DNA of 64,000 nucleotides, taken from Micromonospora sp. NBC_00389. GTDB lineage: Bacteria; Actinomycetota; Actinomycetes; Mycobacteriales; Micromonosporaceae. Made by a program: the position numbers and the translations under genes. The notes beneath the pieces are model-generated. The model ran no database searches. It was not told the origin of the DNA and saw only the letters and a program-made list of their open reading frames with translations. The stretch's first letter is position 1; every line of letters starts with the position of its first letter. This document shows positions 1-33,035 of this stretch, piece by piece. Where the stretch lies: assembly GCF_036059255.1 (NCBI RefSeq), contig NZ_CP107947.1:5146001-5210000 (forward strand). Reading direction: 5' to 3'.

Positions 1-801
1 ATCTGGGCGTCCTTCGACGACCCGATCACCGTGCTGCTCACCGTCTACGTCTCCGCGTTCGCCCTGGACCTCAGCGGAGGTGACGGGGGCGCGCTCGCCG
101 GCGCGATCAGCGACCGGCCGCTGGAGCTCCTGGTCGACCTGTTCGCCAACATCGCCTTCGCGGCGGGCGCCTGGCTGCTGTGGCTGCTGCTGCGCGCCGC
201 CGGCCTGCGGGAGGACGGGCCCCGCCCGGTGCGACCCCGGGTCCGGTCGGCGCTCAACTGGCTGGCCGTGGCGCTGCTGGTCGTGCTGGTCCTCTTCGCC
301 GCCTGGCAGTTCCTCATGCTCGGCGTGGCGATCGCCGGGCTCTTCTTCCGACCCCGGCTCGGCCCGGTCGTCGGCCGGTCCACCCAGGCGGCGTACCTGG
401 TCGCCACCTTCCTGCTCGGGCTGTTGCTCGTGCAGGGCGTCGACGTCGTCCCCGGCGTGGTGCTCGGCCTGGCGGCCGTGGCGGCCCAACTGGTGGTGTC
501 AGTGCCGATCACCCGCGGCCTACCCACGTCCGACCGGCGCTACCTCGCCTGGGGGCAGCAGAACGGCATCACCGCGGTGATCCTCGCCCTCGTCCTCGAA
601 CGGGACTTCCCCGGCACGGTGGGCATCGTGGCGACGGCCATCGTGGTCATCAACGTCATCCACGCCCTGGCCACCGCGCTGCTCGACCGGCGTCGCCCCG
701 GCGGCCCCGGAATGGTCGCGCCCCGGCCGGACGCCGACCCGACCGGGCCGCCCCGGATGCGTGAGGTCCCACCGGCCCGCACCCTGGAACCGGACCGTTG
801 A
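1..801 (+). CDS. Cation/proton antiporter-like membrane protein, C-terminal part (5' end outside window)
   Basis: The frame is open from base 1 (IWASFDDPIT...), so the gene starts upstream; 266 residues are visible. It is strongly hydrophobic with about six membrane segments and a short Arg-rich cytoplasmic loop near residues 67-80. The stretch YLAWGQQNGITAVILAL, followed by a last helix and a short polar tail, resembles the C-terminal half of CPA-type Na+/H+ antiporters. Family membership is an inference from this pattern; the ion-binding Asp region lies outside or is not recognisable. It converges on the AAA ATPase gene with only 16 bp between the stops, so the two are unlikely to share a promoter. 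Confidence 0.6.
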   Translation: MWASFDDPITVLLTVYVSAFALDLSGGDGGALAGAISDRPLELLVDLFANIAFAAGAWLLWLLLRAAGLREDGPRPVRPRVRSALNWLAVALLVVLVLFAAWQFLMLGVAIAGLFFRPRLGPVVGRSTQAAYLVATFLLGLLLVQGVDVVPGVVLGLAAVAAQLVVSVPITRGLPTSDRRYLAWGQQNGITAVILALVLERDFPGTVGIVATAIVVINVIHALATALLDRRRPGGPGMVAPRPDADPTGPPRMREVPPARTLEPDR

Positions 802-3315: not shown

Positions 3316-5181
3316 ATGACGGGTCCGGTCCCCGGTGCGTACCGCCCGGCCGGACGGTCACTGCGGGCGGTCTTCGCGGTGATCGGACTGCTCGCGCTGG
3401 TGCTCGGCTTCATCGGCTTCGAGCGGCTGCTGCGGGCCGAGCCGGACACCGGCCACGACCTGTACGACGTGATCTACTACGACCTCCAGCTCTTCGTGCT
3501 CGGCGCGGAGCCGCTGCAGGAGCCCGGCCCGTACCCGTGGCAGTTGCAGGTCGCCCGGTTCGCCGCCCCGCTGTTCACCCTCCTCGCGGTCGTGGAGGCC
3601 AGCCGGCTGCTGCTGGCGGCCGAGATCCGGCGACTGCGCGCCCGCCGGGCCAGGGGGCACGCCGTTGTCTGCGGCGACTCGCAGTTCGCCCACATGCTCG
3701 CCGACCGGCTCTTCAGCGAGGGCGAGCGGGTGGTCGTGGTGCGCGCCGAGCCGTTCGGGCCACTGGAGTACCGCCGGCACCGCTACCTCGGGGTCACCGG
3801 CGACCCGACCAGCCCTGAGGTGCTGCGCGGCGCCGGCCTGCCGCACGCCCGCACGGTCTACGCCTGCACGGACGACGACGACCGCAACCATGCCATCGCC
3901 AACGCCGCGAGCCGGCTGATCCAGGACCGACGGCAGCCGGCCCGGGTCTACGTGCAGGTCCATGACCCCGAGATGTGCCTGTCGTTGCAGGCCCGACGAC
4001 TGGGCGCCGCCGGCTCCAGTCGGCTGCGGCTGGACTACTTCCACGTCGACGACGTGGCCGCCCGGGCCCTGTACCGGCACCATCCCCTGACCTCGACGAC
4101 GGGACGCCCCGTCCGGGTCCTCATCGCTGGTCGGGGCAGCTTCCGTCGGGCCGCGCTCGTGGCCACCGCACGGCACTGGCAACTGCGCCAGGCCGAAGCG
4201 CCGGCCGGTCGGCCCGTGCCACCCCTGCACGTCGACCTGGTGGCCCCGGACGCGACCGCTGAGCTCGCGCTGGCGACCACCCGCCACCCCTTCCTGCCCA
4301 CCGCCTGCGAGGTGCGGGCGTACGACCTGGACCTCGACGGTCTGGTCGACTCGGGAATGCTGCGCCGTGGCTACGACCGGCTCTACGTCTGCGCCGTGGA
4401 CGAGCGCAACGGGCTTCAGTTGGCGCTGGACAACCCCGAACTCTGGCAGCGGGCGGAGAGCACGGTGTTCGTACCCGTGTACCGGCAGGCGGCGCTCGCC
4501 GCCGCGTTCCACGGCGACCGCCGGCACGACCTGCTCGACGAGGTGCACGGCCGGCTCCAGCTCTATCCGGTGCTGACCCGGGCCTGTGACGCCGAGTTGA
4601 TCGCCGAGGACCTCACCGAACGGCTGGCCCGGCAGATCCACGACAAGTACCTCCAGTCGCAGGAGCGCGCCGGGGTGCGCCGGGGCGACACACCCGCCAT
4701 GGTGGACTGGGCACGGCTTCCCGAGTCGCTACGCCGGGCCAACCGTGCCCACGTGCAGGACATCGCCGCCAAGCTGTTGAGCCTCGGCTGCGTGGTGGCG
4801 CCCCGGCACGGCCCCACCGCCGGGGCGGCGGACCCGGACGCCGTCCGGGCCATCGACGACCGGATCGACGAACTGGCTCAACTGGAACACGAACGGTGGT
4901 GCCGGGAACGGCGGGGGGAGGACTGGGTGTACGGCGAGCCTCGGGACGACACCCGCCGCCGGCACCCCGCGCTACGACCGTGGGACGAGCTGCCGTGGGA
5001 CGTCCAGGAGACGAACCGGGACGAGATCCGGGCGCTGCCGGAGGTGTTGTCCGACGCCGGGTTCGAGATGATCCGGCTGACCCCCGACCCGACCGGCCCG
5101 CCGGGGCCGCCCCGCCAGGCCGGTGGCCCGGAAGACTCCCCGCGCGCGTCGGGCGACGCCTCGGGGGAGAGGATTGTCTGA
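3316..5181 (+). CDS. Membrane-anchored TrkA-N (RCK) NAD-binding protein with C-terminal RyR domain
   Basis: 621 residues. Two membrane segments (about 15-38 and 78-100) bracket a loop DVIYYDLQLFVLG that resembles the re-entrant region of channel-like TrkA proteins. A TrkA-N Rossmann domain follows from about residue 112 (HAVVCGDSQFAHMLADRL, then ...ARTVYACTDDDDRNHAIA). A second Rossmann-like half (VRVLIAGRGSFRRAAL) starts near residue 260. The last ~110 residues match the RyR domain pattern: AQLEHERWCRERR, DWVYGEPRDD, HPALRPWDELP and NRDEIRALPEVL. Start 3316 has GAGGGAG 7 nt upstream; an upstream ATG-type start at 3280 lacks this. The stop overlaps the next start by one base (TGATG), so translation is probably coupled. 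RyR plus RCK plus SLOG neighbours suggest a nucleotide-gated membrane sensor (inference). Confidence 0.75.
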   Translation: MTGPVPGAYRPAGRSLRAVFAVIGLLALVLGFIGFERLLRAEPDTGHDLYDVIYYDLQLFVLGAEPLQEPGPYPWQLQVARFAAPLFTLLAVVEASRLLLAAEIRRLRARRARGHAVVCGDSQFAHMLADRLFSEGERVVVVRAEPFGPLEYRRHRYLGVTGDPTSPEVLRGAGLPHARTVYACTDDDDRNHAIANAASRLIQDRRQPARVYVQVHDPEMCLSLQARRLGAAGSSRLRLDYFHVDDVAARALYRHHPLTSTTGRPVRVLIAGRGSFRRAALVATARHWQLRQAEAPAGRPVPPLHVDLVAPDATAELALATTRHPFLPTACEVRAYDLDLDGLVDSGMLRRGYDRLYVCAVDERNGLQLALDNPELWQRAESTVFVPVYRQAALAAAFHGDRRHDLLDEVHGRLQLYPVLTRACDAELIAEDLTERLARQIHDKYLQSQERAGVRRGDTPAMVDWARLPESLRRANRAHVQDIAAKLLSLGCVVAPRHGPTAGAADPDAVRAIDDRIDELAQLEHERWCRERRGEDWVYGEPRDDTRRRHPALRPWDELPWDVQETNRDEIRALPEVLSDAGFEMIRLTPDPTGPPGPPRQAGGPEDSPRASGDASGERIV

Positions 5182-25104: not shown

Positions 25105-25148
25105 CTGATCCGGCGGCGGGGCACGTCCAGCCCCGCCGCGCGGATCAG
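25105..25148. terminator. Bidirectional terminator hairpin overlapping the Ro60 stop codon
   Basis: A perfect 10-bp stem GCGGCGGGGC (25113-25122) / GCCCCGCCGC (25130-25139) is extended by CTGATCCG (25105-25112) and CGGATCAG (25141-25148) with one unpaired base. It lies between the micro-protein gene and the convergent Ro60 gene, and the Ro60 stop codon is inside the outer stem. Confidence 0.7.
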
Positions 25149-26674
25149 AAGGGCCACAGGTCGCGGGATCCGGCCTCGATGAGTGGGATCATCGCGAACG
25201 CGGCGTCGGACAGGCCGCCGAAGGTGTGCCGGTTGCCAACGGTCGGCGTGTGCCCGACCCGGTACCCGGCCAGATTCCAGGTGTACACCGGCACCTCAGC
25301 GGGCACCGCTGCGGCGACGTCGGTGGCCCCGTGCCAGTGGGCCTGCTCATCGGTGAGGATGACCACCCGGTCGTGCCGGTCGTAGTGCTGCCGTACCGCC
25401 TTCTCGGTGTCGGTTCCCATGCCGTAGAAGTAGCCGCCGTCCTTGAACCGGTGCACCGCCGCCAGTACCGACTCACCCGCCACCGCCGGGAACACCCGGC
25501 TGGCATGGGAGAACGACACCACCGTTGCCGCCTGCGCCCGGGCGGCCAGCGCGAGGCCGAACACCGTGGCGGCGTCCCAGCAGCGCAGTGTGCCGTCCTT
25601 GCTGAACGAGCTCTGCATCGAACCGGAGGTGTCGATGAGGACCAGGGTCCGTCCGTCCAGGGCGGGCACGTTCACCAGGGCGTGCTGCAACGCCTTCTCC
25701 AGCGGGTACGCCCACCGCAGGCTCGGTGTCGCGTTGTACGCCGACAGGAAGCGCATCGGCAGCACGCGCGAGGCGGAGACCTCCCCCGGGTCGGAGAGCT
25801 TGGCCGCCACCGTCTCCGCGACGGCGTCGCTGACTCCGGCCCGGTCGAAGTTGCGCAGGTTACGCAGCAGCGCGAGATAGCCCATGTTCGGGATGATCGA
25901 CTCCCACGCCGCGGCGTCCATCGCGCTCTGTCGCCAGCCGGCCAGAGCCTCCCACGTCATACCGGCCGCGCCCAGCTCCGCCGGATCGGTGACCTCCCTG
26001 CGCTGCGCGACCGGCAACGCCATGAGCGCGTCCCGCGCCGCCAGCATCCGGAGCGACGCCGGCAGCGGGTTGTCCCGCTGGTGCCGCCGATCCAGCGCGT
26101 GCCGGAACAGGTCACCCTGCCGCTCGTCCGTCGCGGTGGGGTGGGTCAGGTCGATGACGTCACCGAACCGCACCGGGCTGCCGACGGAGTCGTACTTGAG
26201 CAGGCTCCGCTCGGTGTACAGCCGGACCGCCGCGTCGGCGATGCCCCGCTTCACCGGCTTGGGAAACGCCCGGCCATGGCGACCCAGCCAGTACGCCAGA
26301 GCCTCGCCCGGCTCGTCCGCACGCTGCAACGCGGCGTCCACGACCGCCCGCGACCCCGGCATCTCCGCGGCGACCTGGGCGCGGGCACCCTCCAGTGCCG
26401 CCACCACGGACGCCGAGCGCATCATCGCGCCAGCGCGCAGCCACGGCACGAAGCGGGCGAACCAGTCGGGATCGGTGACGGCGACGGCGGCGACCAGGTT
26501 CCGGAAGCGGGCGTCCCGGTCGGTGGCGCCCTCGTAGAAGGTGTCCTCCCCGACCATGTTCGACACACCGAGCAGGAACAGCTCGATGCGCGGCTCACGG
26601 GTGAAGCCGGGCGCGCCCTCGGCGGTCACCGGCCGGTGGCGGCTCTTGCGCAGCTTGATGTTGAACTTGGCCAT
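25145..26674 (-). CDS. rsr: Ro60/TROVE-domain RNA-binding protein
   Basis: 509 residues. The N-terminal two-thirds is a TROVE HEAT-repeat ring: PRIELFLLGVSNMVGEDTFY, FVPWLRAGAMMRSASVVAAL, LRMLAARDALMALPVAQRRE, GYLALLRNLRNFDRAGV. The C-terminal von Willebrand A domain has an intact MIDAS, LVLIDTSGSMQSS, with TDEQAHWHGATDV. The start at 26674 is chosen over 26722 because GGGGGA precedes it and the MAKFNIKLRK opening is typical. Ro60 proteins bind Y RNAs on the ring's outer surface and misfolded RNAs in its centre, and assist RNA quality control and stress-time rRNA processing. A four-unit structured RNA array lies directly upstream on the same strand. Confidence 0.92.
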   Translation of the reverse strand: MAKFNIKLRKSRHRPVTAEGAPGFTREPRIELFLLGVSNMVGEDTFYEGATDRDARFRNLVAAVAVTDPDWFARFVPWLRAGAMMRSASVVAALEGARAQVAAEMPGSRAVVDAALQRADEPGEALAYWLGRHGRAFPKPVKRGIADAAVRLYTERSLLKYDSVGSPVRFGDVIDLTHPTATDERQGDLFRHALDRRHQRDNPLPASLRMLAARDALMALPVAQRREVTDPAELGAAGMTWEALAGWRQSAMDAAAWESIIPNMGYLALLRNLRNFDRAGVSDAVAETVAAKLSDPGEVSASRVLPMRFLSAYNATPSLRWAYPLEKALQHALVNVPALDGRTLVLIDTSGSMQSSFSKDGTLRCWDAATVFGLALAARAQAATVVSFSHASRVFPAVAGESVLAAVHRFKDGGYFYGMGTDTEKAVRQHYDRHDRVVILTDEQAHWHGATDVAAAVPAEVPVYTWNLAGYRVGHTPTVGNRHTFGGLSDAAFAMIPLIEAGSRDLWPF

Positions 26675-26712: not shown

Positions 26713-26855
26713 CACCACACACCCGAGATCAGAATCGGCCACGGACTAGTCCGCCGTTCTGTCCGTTGAACCATCCACCCGAAGGTGTCGGGGGACTCGA
26801 ACCCCCATCTGCGGAACCCTGAAGTAACCGTTGCCTGCGCACCGGGTGTGTGGTG
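26713..26855 (-). ncRNA. Y-RNA-like structured RNA, unit 4 of tandem array (adjacent to Ro60 gene)
   Basis: Read on the minus strand, the ends pair perfectly over 12 bp: ACCACACACCCG (plus 26843-26854) with CGGGTGTGTGGT (plus 26714-26725), plus one outer pair. Inside is the shared 5' motif GGTGCGCAGGCAACGG... (plus 26821-26843), a tRNA-type T-arm GGGGGTTCGAGTCCCCC (plus 26790-26806), a small hairpin CACCTTCGGGTG and the shared 3' motif GATCTCGGG (plus 26722-26730). It ends about 40 nt before the Ro60 start. The architecture (closed terminal helix, internal loop, tRNA-mimic module) is that of YrlA-type Y RNAs. It has no acceptor end or anticodon arm of a real tRNA. Confidence 0.78.
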
Positions 26856-26859
26856 TGGT

Positions 26860-26953
26860 CGCGCTTCCCGAGATCGAGGTCGGCGACGGATGGTCCTTCA
26901 CCGGGGTCCGAACCCCTCCAGATGTAACCGTCACCTGCGCACCGGGAAGTGCG
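26860..26953 (-). ncRNA. Y-RNA-like structured RNA, unit 3 of tandem array
   Basis: Minus-strand ends pair as CTTCCCG (plus 26943-26949) with CGGGAAG (plus 26864-26870), and a further CGC/GCG beyond one mismatch. The shared 5' motif GGTGCGCAGGTGACGG... lies at plus 26921-26943, the T-arm GGGGTTCGGACCCC at plus 26903-26916 and the 3' motif GATCTCGGG at plus 26867-26875. This is the shortest and least perfect unit. Its 3' flank can pair instead with the unit 4 ends, giving an alternative helix. Confidence 0.68.
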
Positions 26954-27023
26954 GTCACGACCGTAGCGGTGGCGCCGATGCCCGGGCAACGGAGTTTGCG
27001 ATCTTGTGATCGGTAGAGAGTGG

Positions 27024-27141
27024 TCACGCCGCACGCCCGAGATCAAAAGTGGACACGGTTTCGCGGGTTCGAACCGCGGGGCCCTTGCAGGGCCTGCACC
27101 ATAGAAGTAGCCGTGTCCGTCGCACCCGGCGTGCGGCGTGA
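27024..27141 (-). ncRNA. Y-RNA-like structured RNA, unit 2 of tandem array
   Basis: The cleanest unit. Its ends form a perfect 14-bp helix: plus 27128-27141 with plus 27024-27037 (CACGCCGCACGCC core on the RNA). An inner 8-bp helix GGACACGG / CCGTGTCC encloses the module with T-arm CGCGGTTCGAACCCGCG (plus 27062-27078). CGGCTACTTC of the 5' motif (27104-27127) and GATCTCGGG (27036-27044) are present, but the GCGCAGG part of the motif is altered to GCGACGG. Confidence 0.78.
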
Positions 27142-27146
27142 GCGCG

Positions 27147-27295
27147 CCTCCCGAGATCGAAGCGGCGACGGCGACCGGCCCTTGCGGGCCAAGGTGACCT
27201 GGGCCGCTGGTCGACGCCACCCGAAGTGGCGGTGGGATTCGAACCCACGTCTCCCCGTTGAGAGCGGAAGTAGCCGTTACCTGCGCACCGGGAGG
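27147..27295 (-). ncRNA. Y-RNA-like structured RNA, unit 1 of tandem array (promoter-proximal)
   Basis: Minus-strand ends pair as CCTCCCG (plus 27289-27295) with CGGGAGG (plus 27147-27153), with weaker pairs outside. The 5' motif GGTGCGCAGGTAACGG... is at plus 27267-27289, a canonical T-arm GTGGGTTCGAATCCCAC at plus 27232-27248, then a hairpin CGCCAC-ttcgg-GTGGCG, and GATCTCGGG at plus 27150-27158. It abuts unit 2 and begins just after a promoter-like sequence. Confidence 0.75.
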
Positions 27296-27304
27296 TGCCC
27301 CACG

Positions 27305-27333
27305 ACGGTAGGCCCGCACCCCCGAGCCAGCAA
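27305..27333 (-). promoter_or_regulatory. Promoter-like sequence for the Y-RNA-like array (and possibly Ro60)
   Basis: On the minus strand TTGCTG (plus 27328-27333) and TACCGT (plus 27305-27310) are separated by 17 bp, a sigma-70-type arrangement. Transcription would begin about 7 nt downstream near plus 27298, at the first bases of unit 1. No second promoter as good is seen between the units and the Ro60 gene. Confidence 0.5.
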
Positions 27334-30043: not shown

Positions 30044-31000
30044 ATGACCCCGACGCAGCTGCGCGCGTATGTCGCCGTGGTCCGGCTGGGGTCCGTCAAG
30101 CAGGCCGCCGCGGAGCTTCAGGTCTCCGAGTCGGCCGTGTCACTTCACGTCGCACAGCTACGCAAGGAGTTCGGGGACAAGCTGTTCACCAAGACTGCGG
30201 CGGGGCTCGCGTTCACCCCTGGCGGGCTCCGGCTGGCCAGCCGCGCGGCGGAGCTGCTGGGCCTGCAGGACCGCACGATGCTTGAGGTGAGCGGCGCGAA
30301 GCGCGGCCGGCGGCTGCTGCGGGTGGCCGCGTCCAGCCTGTTCGCCGAGTTCGCCGCGCCGGGGTTGATCGAGCTGTTCGCGAAGCGGGCCGCCGACCTC
30401 GATGTCGAGTTGAGCGTGGGCGACCCGGGCGCGTTCGAGTCGCTGTTGCTGACCCGCGCCGCGGACATCGCGATCGGGCCGCAGCCGCCGGTCGTCGATC
30501 AGGCGATCGCCTGCCGGCCGATGATGAACTACCGGCTCGTGCTCGTCGCCGGCCCGGACCATCCGCTCGCCGGCGTGCCGGCGTCCCCTGGGCAGTTGCG
30601 GGAGCAGACCTGGCTGCTCGGGCCGTCGGCGGCCACCGACCTGGGTGCGGTGCCGGGGATGCTGCGTCGGCTGGCGGTGCCCGACGACCGGCAGCAGATC
30701 TTCCAGAGCCACGCGGCGGCGCTGGGTGAGGCCAAGCGGGGCCGGGGCGTCTCACCGGCGCTCGCGTTCACCGTCGCGCCGGATCTCCGCGAGGGTCAAC
30801 TCAAGCCGGTGGTGGGGCCGCACGCGACTGTTGAGGCGGTGTGGCACTCGCAGGTGCTCGCCAACCCGGGGCTGCTGTCGGCCGCCGACGAGCTGTGGCG
30901 GTTCTCGTCGACCCCGCGGGCGATTCAGGCGATGATGCGCGGCGCGGGCGTCAATGTCGGCCACTTCAAGCCGTCGGTGCACGTGACGCTCTGGAGCTGA
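30044..31000 (+). CDS. LysR family regulator next to the CO dehydrogenase cluster
   Basis: 318 residues. The N-terminal HTH (TPTQLRAYVAVVRLGSVKQA, ELQVSESAVSLHVAQLRKEF) is followed by a LysR substrate-binding domain (RRLLRVAASSLFAEFAAPGL, ADIAIGPQPPVVDQAI, LVLVAGPDHPLAGV). Start 30044 gives the usual MTPTQLRAY opening; a GTG at 30035 is closer to the GGGGAGG site and cannot be excluded. Its 3' end overlaps the 3' end of coxE by 76 bp on opposite strands. The location suggests control of the cox genes. Confidence 0.85.
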   Translation: MTPTQLRAYVAVVRLGSVKQAAAELQVSESAVSLHVAQLRKEFGDKLFTKTAAGLAFTPGGLRLASRAAELLGLQDRTMLEVSGAKRGRRLLRVAASSLFAEFAAPGLIELFAKRAADLDVELSVGDPGAFESLLLTRAADIAIGPQPPVVDQAIACRPMMNYRLVLVAGPDHPLAGVPASPGQLREQTWLLGPSAATDLGAVPGMLRRLAVPDDRQQIFQSHAAALGEAKRGRGVSPALAFTVAPDLREGQLKPVVGPHATVEAVWHSQVLANPGLLSAADELWRFSSTPRAIQAMMRGAGVNVGHFKPSVHVTLWS

Positions 31001-32163
31001 CGGGCGGCGACCAGCAGGTCCTGGAACGTGCCGGCCGGCAGCAGCCGGTCGCAGTAGGGGAGCGCGGCGGACATGCCCGCCGCCCGAGGAGCGAAGCCGG
31101 GGGCGCCGGCACGTGGGTTCAACCAGACGATCCGGTACGCGCGGCGGCGCAGCCGGGCCATCACGGTCGCCAACTCGTCGGGCGGGTCGCTGTCCCAGCC
31201 GTCCGAGCCGATCACGACCACGGCCCCGCGCACGGCGTCGGCGTGATGGGAGGTGAGCAGGGCGCGCAGGTTCGTGGCGATCCGGGTACCGCCGTACCGG
31301 TCGGTCACGGCGGCGCTGGCCTGCGCGACGGCCTCGGCGGCCGAGGTGTGTCGCAGCACCACCGTGAGCCGGGTCAGTCTTGTGGCGAACGCGAACACCT
31401 CCGCGTCGGCGACCACCGCGAACGCCCGCATCAGGTGCAGGTACGCGGTCGCCTGCGCCCGCATCGACTCGCTGACGTCGCAGAGCAGCACGACCCGGCG
31501 GGGGCGCCGCACCGGCCGCTCGCGGACGATCTCGACGGGTTCCCATCCGGTGCGCCGAGCACGGGCGATGGTCGGCCGCAGTGCGATTCGCGGTCCGGCC
31601 GAGCCGACGGCGTGTCGCCTGGTGCGCCGGGTCGGCCAGCCGGCGACGGCCGCGCGCAGAGCGTCGCCGAGCATCGTGACCTGCGCGGCGTCGAGTTCGT
31701 CGAACGGCCGGTCGGCGAGCCCGGCGAGGGCGCTGGGACGCCGCTCGGGCAGCCGCAGCGCGGTGTCGGCTTCCGTCGCCTCGGCGACGGCCGGCGGCAG
31801 AGTGGCCCACGGCAGTCCGCCGCCGGGGCCGGTGTCGTCCGTGTCGGCGGGCACCGGCACGTACACGTCGTCGTGACCCTCCGCCGGGGGCGCGGACCGC
31901 GAGGGTGGCAGCAGGGGTGGCGGGTCCGCGAAGACCGCCGTGAAGACCCGGTCGAACTTGGCGAGATCGGAGTGCCGCCGGACCAGGCTGATCCGGGCGG
32001 TCCAGTACAGCGTGGACATCGAGTCGGGCGGGCTGGCGGCGAGCGCCCGGACGAAGTCGTCGACGTCGGTGAGCCCGGCCGGGACGCCGGCGTGCCGCAG
32101 TCGGCCGGCGAGGGCCACGGCGAACGCGGCTCGGTCGATCCCGTGCAGCAGGGCCGGGCTCAC
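30925..32163 (-). CDS. coxE: CoxE-like von Willebrand A domain protein
   Basis: 412 residues. The C-terminal VWA domain has the MIDAS motif VVLLCDVSESMRAQ (DxSxS) and GGTRIATNLRALL, with the CoxE-type end WLNPRAGAPGFAPRAAGM and ALPYCDRLLPA. In CO dehydrogenase clusters CoxE works with the CoxD ATPase in maturing the active site. The GTG start overlaps the coxG stop (GTGA). The last ~25 residues (QLQSVTCTDGLKWPTL...) are read from DNA antisense to the end of lysR and may be a read-on extension. Confidence 0.85.
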   Translation of the reverse strand: MSPALLHGIDRAAFAVALAGRLRHAGVPAGLTDVDDFVRALAASPPDSMSTLYWTARISLVRRHSDLAKFDRVFTAVFADPPPLLPPSRSAPPAEGHDDVYVPVPADTDDTGPGGGLPWATLPPAVAEATEADTALRLPERRPSALAGLADRPFDELDAAQVTMLGDALRAAVAGWPTRRTRRHAVGSAGPRIALRPTIARARRTGWEPVEIVRERPVRRPRRVVLLCDVSESMRAQATAYLHLMRAFAVVADAEVFAFATRLTRLTVVLRHTSAAEAVAQASAAVTDRYGGTRIATNLRALLTSHHADAVRGAVVVIGSDGWDSDPPDELATVMARLRRRAYRIVWLNPRAGAPGFAPRAAGMSAALPYCDRLLPAGTFQDLLVAARQLQSVTCTDGLKWPTLTPAPRIIA

Positions 32164-33035
32164 CGACGCGCGACCAGCCAGGCGATCACTGCGCCGACCG
32201 CGACGAGACCGACGATCACTGGTACGAGTCGCTTGGTGATCGAACCGCCGGCGATGCTGAGCAGGTCGAGCGCCTCAGGCTCGGAGGCCGGCGTCGTCCG
32301 CGTGCCGGCGGTCGCCGACTCGACGGCCGGCGCGGCCCGGCTGGTGGCGGCCGGCGGCTCGACGGGTGCAGGCTCGGCGAGGGAGAGCTCGGCGGCCGAC
32401 GGCGCTACCGGCGACGGCTCGACCGGTGCGGGCGTTACGGCAGCGGTGCCGGGCGTGGTCGCGACCGCCGCGGCGGACGCGGCCGGGACCGGCTCGGCTT
32501 CCTGCCGAGCGGCGGGCGCCGACGCGACGGGCTCGGAGTCGGACCGGGCGGCGGGCACCGGCGCGGTGCCCCCGGCGACCGGCGTCGCCTGCTCGGCCGC
32601 CAGCTTGGCCTCCAGATTGGCGACGAACTGGGCCAGCAGCTTGCCCGACACCTCCTTGATCATGCCGCTGCCGAACTGGGCCAGCTTTCCCGAGATCTTC
32701 AGGTCGGCGTCCACGCTGACCAGCGTCCGGTCGCCGTCCGGCCGCAACCGGGCGGTGACCAGCGCCGAGGCGTTCCCGGTCGACCGGGCGTCGCGGCCCT
32801 TCGCGTCGATCACCCCGTGGTACGCCGCGTCGTCCTTCTCGACGAACTGTGCCGTGCCCGCGAACTCCGAGATGACCGGCCCGACCTTGACCTTCACCCT
32901 GCCCCGGTAGACGTCGCCGTCGACTCCGGTCAGTTGGGCGCCCGGCAGGCACGGCGCGATCCCCTCAAGGTCGGTGAGCACCGCCCAGGCCCGCTCGATC
33001 GGGACGGTGACCGCGAACTCGTTGGTGATCTTCAT
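32160..33035 (-). CDS. coxG: CoxG-like SRPBCC protein with C-terminal membrane anchor
   Basis: 291 residues. An N-terminal SRPBCC (CoxG) domain spans about 1-150: MKITNEFAVTVPIERAWAVL, PCLPGAQLTGVDGDVYRGR, KISGKLAQFGSGMIKEVSGK. A Pro/Ala/Glu-rich linker (155-255) leads to a TM helix (LVPVIVGLVAVGAVIAWLV) and a basic end. CoxG is thought to help recruit CO dehydrogenase to the membrane; the long flexible linker fits a tether. It overlaps coxD and coxE by 4 bp each. Confidence 0.88.
   Translation of the reverse strand: MKITNEFAVTVPIERAWAVLTDLEGIAPCLPGAQLTGVDGDVYRGRVKVKVGPVISEFAGTAQFVEKDDAAYHGVIDAKGRDARSTGNASALVTARLRPDGDRTLVSVDADLKISGKLAQFGSGMIKEVSGKLLAQFVANLEAKLAAEQATPVAGGTAPVPAARSDSEPVASAPAARQEAEPVPAASAAAVATTPGTAAVTPAPVEPSPVAPSAAELSLAEPAPVEPPAATSRAAPAVESATAGTRTTPASEPEALDLLSIAGGSITKRLVPVIVGLVAVGAVIAWLVARR

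Follow-up and report, generated by a model that had tools for sequence, protein, structure and literature searches.

Four Y-RNA-like units with plain and tRNA-like modules upstream of a Ro60 gene in Micromonospora

In the literature on bacterial Y RNAs, Rsr is described as binding the lower stem of these RNAs, and the Y RNA of Deinococcus radiodurans as gating Rsr and tethering PNPase through a region of two hairpins, one of them T-arm-like (PMC4726728, PMC6181284, PMC8394870); the account of this Y RNA (RYPER) says that the T-arm-like two-hairpin region binds PNPase (PMC6181284). The YrlA RNAs (Rfam RF02553; Salmonella rsr-yrlBA-rtcBA) likewise lie beside Ro60, measure 90-150 nt, share a basal stem with the units reported here and have a T-arm, an acceptor-like hairpin and a D-arm (PMC8394870, PMC7790460, PMC9879122), which the RF02553 alignment shows in permuted order. 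YrlA is further described as a substrate of the tRNA enzymes DusA and TruB (PMC8394870). Actinophages, too, have Ro-like RNA binding proteins, and the 15 records listed out of 79 include TROVE proteins from phages of Streptomyces, Gordonia and Arthrobacter.

The locus described here belongs to this known kind of RNA and, in contrast to the actinophage TROVE loci, is chromosomal. It lies in a 64-kb stretch of DNA (the window) from a genome of 7.87 Mb, and the closest TROVE genes among named relatives are those of Micromonospora. Four structured RNA units (26713-27298, minus strand) stand just 5' of one Ro60/TROVE gene and on its own strand, with an MFS gene on the other side of the four-unit stretch. 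The features are given below in the order of their coordinates, where R1 and R2 are search models built in this analysis, R2 representing the plain core.

25145..26674, minus strand: Ro60/TROVE gene, its ATG (26674) lying about 40 nt past unit 4 (PF05731, E 9.3e-15)
26713..26855, minus strand: unit 4 (type D), predicted Y RNA with permuted tRNA module (18 loci aligned; YrlA 28.7 bits)
26828-26835 with 26737-26744, minus strand: inner (putative Ro) stem of unit 4, 8 positions
26756-26771, 26776-26787 and 26790-26806, minus strand: D-arm, acceptor-like hairpin and T-arm of unit 4
26861..26952, minus strand: unit 3 (type C), predicted plain Y RNA (12 loci aligned; R2 E 3.1e-18, this unit being in the R2 training set)
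26960..26989, minus strand: promoter-like site 2 (TTGCCC, 18 nt, TACGGT), about 8 nt ahead of the unit 3 terminal helix
27025..27140, minus strand: unit 2 (type B), predicted Y RNA with two hairpins (9 loci aligned; R1 E 3.6e-10, R2 E 3.1e-7)
27144..27298, minus strand: unit 1 (type A), predicted Y RNA with permuted tRNA module (16 loci aligned; R1 E 4.8e-17)
27196-27212, 27215-27231 and 27232-27248, minus strand: D-arm (tRNA-Glu-like), 7-bp acceptor-like hairpin and T-arm of unit 1, which has an additional GC hairpin
27305..27333, minus strand: promoter-like site 1 (TTGCTG, 17 nt, TACCGT), about 7 nt ahead of the unit 1 terminal helix

The window's TROVE gene is a true Ro60. In addition to the Pfam TROVE match, the protein matches the profiles of D. 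radiodurans Rsr (2nvo, E 2.2e-9) and of vertebrate Ro60, it has the ring of helices and the vWA-like domain, and a fold search with its structure model (mean pLDDT 75.4, pTM 0.60) gave 13 matches at E <= 0.001, all of them Ro60/TROVE proteins, including the Ro60 of Thermus phage phiLo. The earlier note on this DNA, made from the sequence alone, had placed four Y-RNA-like units on one strand next to a Ro60 gene; that observation is upheld in substance and supported as to the genuineness of the Ro60, and the reading as a whole is partly supported. Upstream of the Y RNA locus, at 30925-33035 on the minus strand, the window also contains a CoxE-like vWA gene and a CoxG-like gene, of the carbon monoxide dehydrogenase accessory type.

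All units are built on a common frame, in which a terminal helix ending in CGG is followed by GUGCG, an inner helix ending in ACGG, UAC(U/A)UC and a middle part that varies, with all return strands ending in GAUCUCGGG; the conserved inner helix motif reads GUGCGMAG..ACGGNUACUUC, and unit 2 has one mismatch at the CGG end of its terminal helix. The paired ends claimed earlier are present in every unit, but their lengths differ from the 12 bp (unit 4) and 14 bp (unit 2) then given, as both helices have 13 bp, contiguous in unit 2, and those of units 1 and 3 consist of 7 bp, one mismatch and 2 bp. Similarly, the 3' motif GATCTCGGG and a 5' GGTGCG are common to all four, although unit 2 reads GGTGCGACGGACACGG. 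Two further claims, of a T-arm in every unit and of tRNA mimicry in all four, have to be restricted. GGTTCGA is found only in units 1, 2 and 4, and the corresponding GGGGTTCGGACCCC of unit 3 has a loop that is lost in relatives; tRNA mimicry holds for units 1 and 4, whereas unit 2 has only a T-arm-like hairpin (GCGGTTCGAACCCGC) beside a GC hairpin, without D-arm or acceptor mimic, and unit 3 carries GGAG and GGUGAA on either side of a single short hairpin.

In units 1 and 4, the T-arm, the acceptor-like hairpin and the D-arm follow each other in this order and are closed by an anticodon-like stem, which is the YrlA order in the Rfam model; units 2 and 3 lack this combination. The set as a whole shows two traits that characterize bacterial Y RNAs, the coding next to Ro60 and a long stem in which the 5' end pairs with the 3' end and an inner portion is conserved. 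By description only, unit 2 is similar to the D. radiodurans RYPER Y RNA, with two hairpins of which one is T-arm-like (PMC6181284), but it sits in a set together with tRNA-mimic and plain units.

The sequence models show that the likeness of the units exceeds chance. Units 1 and 2 were outside both training sets and are found by R1 at the E-values listed above, the next best match in the 64 kb having an E-value of 0.057, and by R2 at E 8.1e-10 (unit 1) and at the value listed (unit 2). R2 retrieved nothing beyond the four units up to E 5 in the window, and no match besides them at E <= 0.01 in the entire 7.87 Mb genome. R1 is less specific, as it matches at ten places in this genome and occurs in 63/101 relatives (E <= 0.01); many of its extra matches are partial, and those checked lie at tRNA genes. 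A large cluster of tRNA-family matches, with weak R1 matches among them, is located far from TROVE in the window's genome (G000:C1:6752475-6756733).

At the gathering threshold, Rfam gave no match in the window and only genuine tRNAs (at L016) in 14 related loci, none of which reached the YrlA gathering score. Unit 4 (28.7 bits) and unit 1 (25.5 bits) remain below the 69 bits required, which are a database cut-off and not a biological feature. Nevertheless, a loose YrlA scan of seven related loci gave four at E 7e-7 or better, the best with 55.4 bits and E 5.1e-10. The proposed likeness to Rfam YrlA is thus significant in relatives, with the units themselves below gathering, and, judged from these scores, this Y RNA branch falls below the cut-off of Rfam rather than being unrelated to YrlA. 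It differs from the described YrlA in having four units and two promoter-like sites, in RtcB genes that lie elsewhere in the genome, in contrast to the Salmonella rsr-yrlBA-rtcBA locus, and in the Glu-like or Leu-like modules of unit 1 and other loci, the Leu-like ones often with a variable arm. Genuine tRNA genes were also considered, and ARAGORN found none in the window. In Catellatospora (L035, L036, L037), ARAGORN placed tRNA-Ile or tRNA-Trp calls inside Y units, so that units of this sort may be mistaken for tRNA genes by tRNA finders.

Single-sequence folding of the units was unremarkable (z -1.5 to -0.2) and was left out of the evidence, and therefore the case rests on comparison. Orthologous units were aligned type by type, pairs were counted, and the observed covariation score was compared with 500 shuffles, which kin sequences may beat without structure, although slid controls agree in direction. 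In type D (unit 4, 18 loci), with 96.5% paired and 9/38 pairs changed on both sides, the score was 0.185 versus 0.089 in shuffles (0/500). The scores of type A (unit 1, 16 loci; 0.100 versus 0.070, 0/500), type B (unit 2, 9 loci; 0.113 versus 0.061, 0/500) and type C (unit 3, 12 loci; 0.139 versus 0.104, 4/500) were likewise above those of the shuffles; the three two-sided pairs of type A are a number also reached by 28/500 shuffles, and in types D and A further pair types were no more numerous than in shuffles. Covariation was also present in diverse sets, namely 32 tRNA-mimic units (17/26 pairs changed on both sides; 0.436 versus 0.140, 0/500; slid controls <= 0.138) and 20 plain units (10/15 pairs; 0.318 versus 0.148, 0/500; slid controls <= 0.142). 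Covariation extends to the terminal helix of every type; the inner helix, which varies little within types and has one position that is mostly unpaired in types A and D, covaries in the diverse sets. The idea that structure is kept while sequence changes is thus borne out in all four types, and the absence of covariation in homologous loci, which would have spoken against it, was not observed. A protein-coding reading of the region was also examined; open frames cross it, but orthologous units differ by 1-5 nt in length and their pairs covary, and it was therefore rejected.

The same compensatory changes bear on the idea that the units are degenerate tRNA genes remaining from a tRNA array. Twelve tRNA genes just upstream of the two units of L016, the large tRNA cluster elsewhere in the window's genome and the weak, mostly partial R1 matches at tRNA arrays are compatible with such an origin. 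Nevertheless, ARAGORN recognizes no tRNA in the window (despite its calls inside some Catellatospora units), two conserved helices enclose the arms, whose order is permuted, and pairing is maintained by compensatory change, which makes this origin highly improbable.

The D-arm segments were scored against a tRNA reference taken from the window's genome and from L016, which was used for the other genera too. Among cellular mimics, 75/79 D-arms scored >= 12, versus 1/790 mononucleotide shuffles, which keep base composition only; among viral units, these numbers were 88/123 and 3/1230, two of these shuffles being such as would pass as clear calls. Most D-arms belong to the common TAGCTCA class and were given no isotype, and when real tRNAs were left out in turn, 14/86 received a clear call, of which 12/14 were right. 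Unit 1 and its two scored orthologues (3 of 16 type A loci scored) are clearly called as tRNA-Glu, and for the window's unit 4 the D-arm gives no clear isotype (Asn 11, Leu 10). Ten TROVE-proximal Streptomyces-like units (L047, L078, L079, L081, L090, L092, L094, L095, L099, L101) are clearly called as tRNA-Leu, with a margin of 5.5 or 6 points; the other clear cellular calls are one Val and one Arg, and the clear viral ones five Glu and four Leu. In these ten Leu-like units, 4/5 pairs of the anticodon-like stem changed on both sides, and the variable-arm position before the T-arm is occupied by a 5-bp arm in seven, by a 2-bp arm in L078 and L094 and by none in L101; in the 5-bp arm, two-sided changes have occurred at all five pairs, with 95.1% of cells pairing. 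Other Streptomyces-like loci have a class I module where the Leu-like one sits, indicating that the module changes its tRNA identity above a constant core. A Ser-like class consists of two priA-linked units, in which other isotypes score nearly as well as the best one. As judged from these D-arm calls, the imitated tRNA differs among sets, which is apparently new.

The earlier note had a single promoter-like sequence ahead of unit 1. Instead, there are two conserved promoter-like sites, since TTGnnn-16..19-TAnnnT precedes unit 1 in 16/16 Micromonospora loci and unit 3 in 12/12, and was found ahead of unit 2 in 0/7 (7 of 9 type B loci scored) and of unit 4 in 0/18. This relaxed pattern was picked after inspecting the upstream sequences; it occurs six times on both strands of the 64-kb window, two of these being sites 1 and 2, and a generic sigma-70 scan gave no match. 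Because the -10 box lies 7-8 nt before the helix in the window, transcripts may start at the terminal helix, and the arrangement of the sites suggests that there are probably two transcription units, 1+2 and 3+4+TROVE. In L004, whose unit 3 is a remnant, the promoter-like site read in the sequence ahead of it is kept and may still drive unit 4 and TROVE.

A single transcript of unit 3, unit 4 and TROVE from site 2, with unit 4 ending about 40 nt ahead of the TROVE start and no terminator found, would also suit a mainly cis-acting role, in which unit 4, or units 3 and 4, would form a leader of the TROVE mRNA (for example for Ro60 feedback) and not free Y RNAs. We consider this unlikely, as the same core is found in units 1 and 2 and in units away from TROVE and the module resembles a tRNA and not a terminator; both readings would be satisfied if the RNAs were processed from one common transcript.

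The search of other actinobacterial TROVE loci that the earlier note had suggested did recover such units, which co-occur with TROVE in three genome samples. Counts are per genome, some R2 matches not being beside TROVE, and the search filters used on large samples drop weak matches. Among 101 relatives, where TROVE-positive means a genome matching the window's TROVE protein, R2 was found in 16/18 TROVE-positive genomes and 0/83 others. One of these 83, G080, has a divergent TROVE without R2 match, and the corrected counts are therefore 16/19 and 0/82; there, an R1 match adjoins the TROVE gene missed by the single-protein search, and a second R1 match (C105, E 3.8e-7) was counted against the Y RNA explanation. 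The corresponding numbers were 8/11 and 0/385 in 396 genomes of the phylum, and 88/95 and 7/104 in 199 Streptomyces-like genomes, 95 of which have an R2 match. Five loci (L115-L119) were compared from the seven R2-positive Streptomyces-like genomes without TROVE match, and TROVE fragments were present in 5/5. Therefore, R2-type RNAs occur almost only alongside TROVE genes or TROVE remains, and units and TROVE decay together. TROVE-positive genomes without R2 match numbered 2/18 (3/19 including G080), 3/11 and 7/95 in the three samples, and in many genomes of the same genus no TROVE match was found.

Taken as a whole, the four units are best explained, with high confidence, as a bacterial Y RNA set serving the single Ro60 of this genome. 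The conserved inner helix probably binds Ro60, its stem likely docking on the outside of the ring and gating its hole, as would be expected from Rsr, and the exchangeable module above it would likely set the accompanying partner, either PNPase or tRNA-binding enzymes. By analogy, the four modules of one locus could choose different partners, and the T-loop and D-loop sequences of units 1 and 4 would be compatible with modification by DusA and TruB.

Four units at one locus, considered unusual in the earlier note, turned out to be common in this branch when R1 and R2 matches were merged into units per TROVE locus (leaving out four L016 R1 matches in its tRNA array and, for viral loci, three partial R1 matches at L234, L217 and L218, covering model positions 32-109 only). 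Among 19 Micromonospora loci, 13 have four units, one has three, four have two and one has one; L004 and L029 are counted among the 13 through a 38-nt remnant of unit 3. These remnants (L004:1288-1325 and L029:2788-2825) are unit 3 shrunk to its terminal helix. In L016 (G005), of the same genus, twelve consecutive tRNA genes (3515-4457) lie just upstream of two Y units and TROVE, a phage-like arrangement. The Catellatospora loci have 5, 4 and 5 units, in most cases at least about 1 kb upstream of TROVE, the Actinomadura loci 2 and 2, and seven other loci two units (five loci), three (one) or one (one). The 34 Streptomyces-like loci, chosen by R2 match and hence uninformative on unit-less loci, have three units in 17, two in 16 and one in one.

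Viral contigs were searched with the TROVE of L016 (58% identical to the window's TROVE), and their 63 loci (L183-L245), chosen by protein alone and including near-duplicates (L217/L218, L228/L229, L189/L190), have at least one unit in 61 cases and up to six in one locus. Two have none, four one, 16 two, 22 three, nine four, seven five and three six, amounting to 19/63 loci with four to six units; the unit-less L219 and L245 have just 63 and 153 nt of upstream sequence, and some units of L208 and L210 lie downstream of TROVE.

The unit 3 remnants and the single degraded unit of L043 show that single units are dispensable, and units lost singly (the L004 and L029 remnants, and L013, L030, L034 and L040 with two units each) raise the question of whether the units could be interchangeable copies of one Y RNA function, with module differences reflecting drift or a record of duplication and no separate roles. 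The variability of unit 2, which mimics a whole tRNA in four loci and has a short form in nine, points in the same direction. However, every type holds its own structure with covariation across species, the four pairs of the unit 1 D-arm are invariant across 16 loci, and units of differing kinds are combined in the Micromonospora, Streptomyces-like and viral-contig sets; interchangeability is thus possible, but we think it somewhat doubtful. Under the reading of a Y RNA set with differing modules, nature offers sets with a constant putative Ro60-binding part and a module of changing tRNA identity, allowing a direct test of the adaptor idea.

As a tentative extension, Actinobacteria and their phages might combine one Ro60 with an expandable Y RNA set that includes trans partners encoded upstream of priA. 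Its exchangeable modules would be modelled on several tRNAs (Glu-like; Leu-like, carrying a class II variable arm; Ser-like; generic class I), and the one ring would thereby be directed to differing targets or tRNA enzymes. The junction between two tandem tRNA genes may be where the permuted module originated, perhaps more than once; this is only a lead, as R1 matches tRNA arrays weakly and for the most part partially. In the literature surveyed, which did not extend to the main YrlA papers and reviews, we did not meet mixed sets, a change of tRNA identity including the class II variable arm, or priA units, so that priority is uncertain; nor did it, the main YrlA papers again lying outside it, yield Streptomyces Y RNAs with TROVE. 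The sets reveal a Y RNA branch below the Rfam cut-off, many sets on viral contigs and Y-RNA-like genes away from Ro60.

Among the matches listed, 15 Streptomyces-like units that are not beside TROVE were inspected. Three loci, L112 (G553), L114 (G541) and L120 (G676), have Y-like units neither at TROVE nor at priA, the last being a lone tRNA-mimic unit with a Glu-like D-arm in a genome without TROVE match. The other 12/15, all of the C class (unit-3-like), lie directly upstream of a gene with a PriA motif (L053, L057, L060, L105-L111, L113, L248), and the one downstream gene that was family-searched is primosomal protein N' (E 4.4e-143). Eleven of the 12 priA-linked genomes are within the 199-genome sample and are TROVE-positive (11/11), as is the twelfth, G429. 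In 4/12 of these loci (L105, L106, L107, L109), a second unit with tRNA-like T-loop and D-arm follows the C-class unit, in the order of units 3 and 4 in the window.
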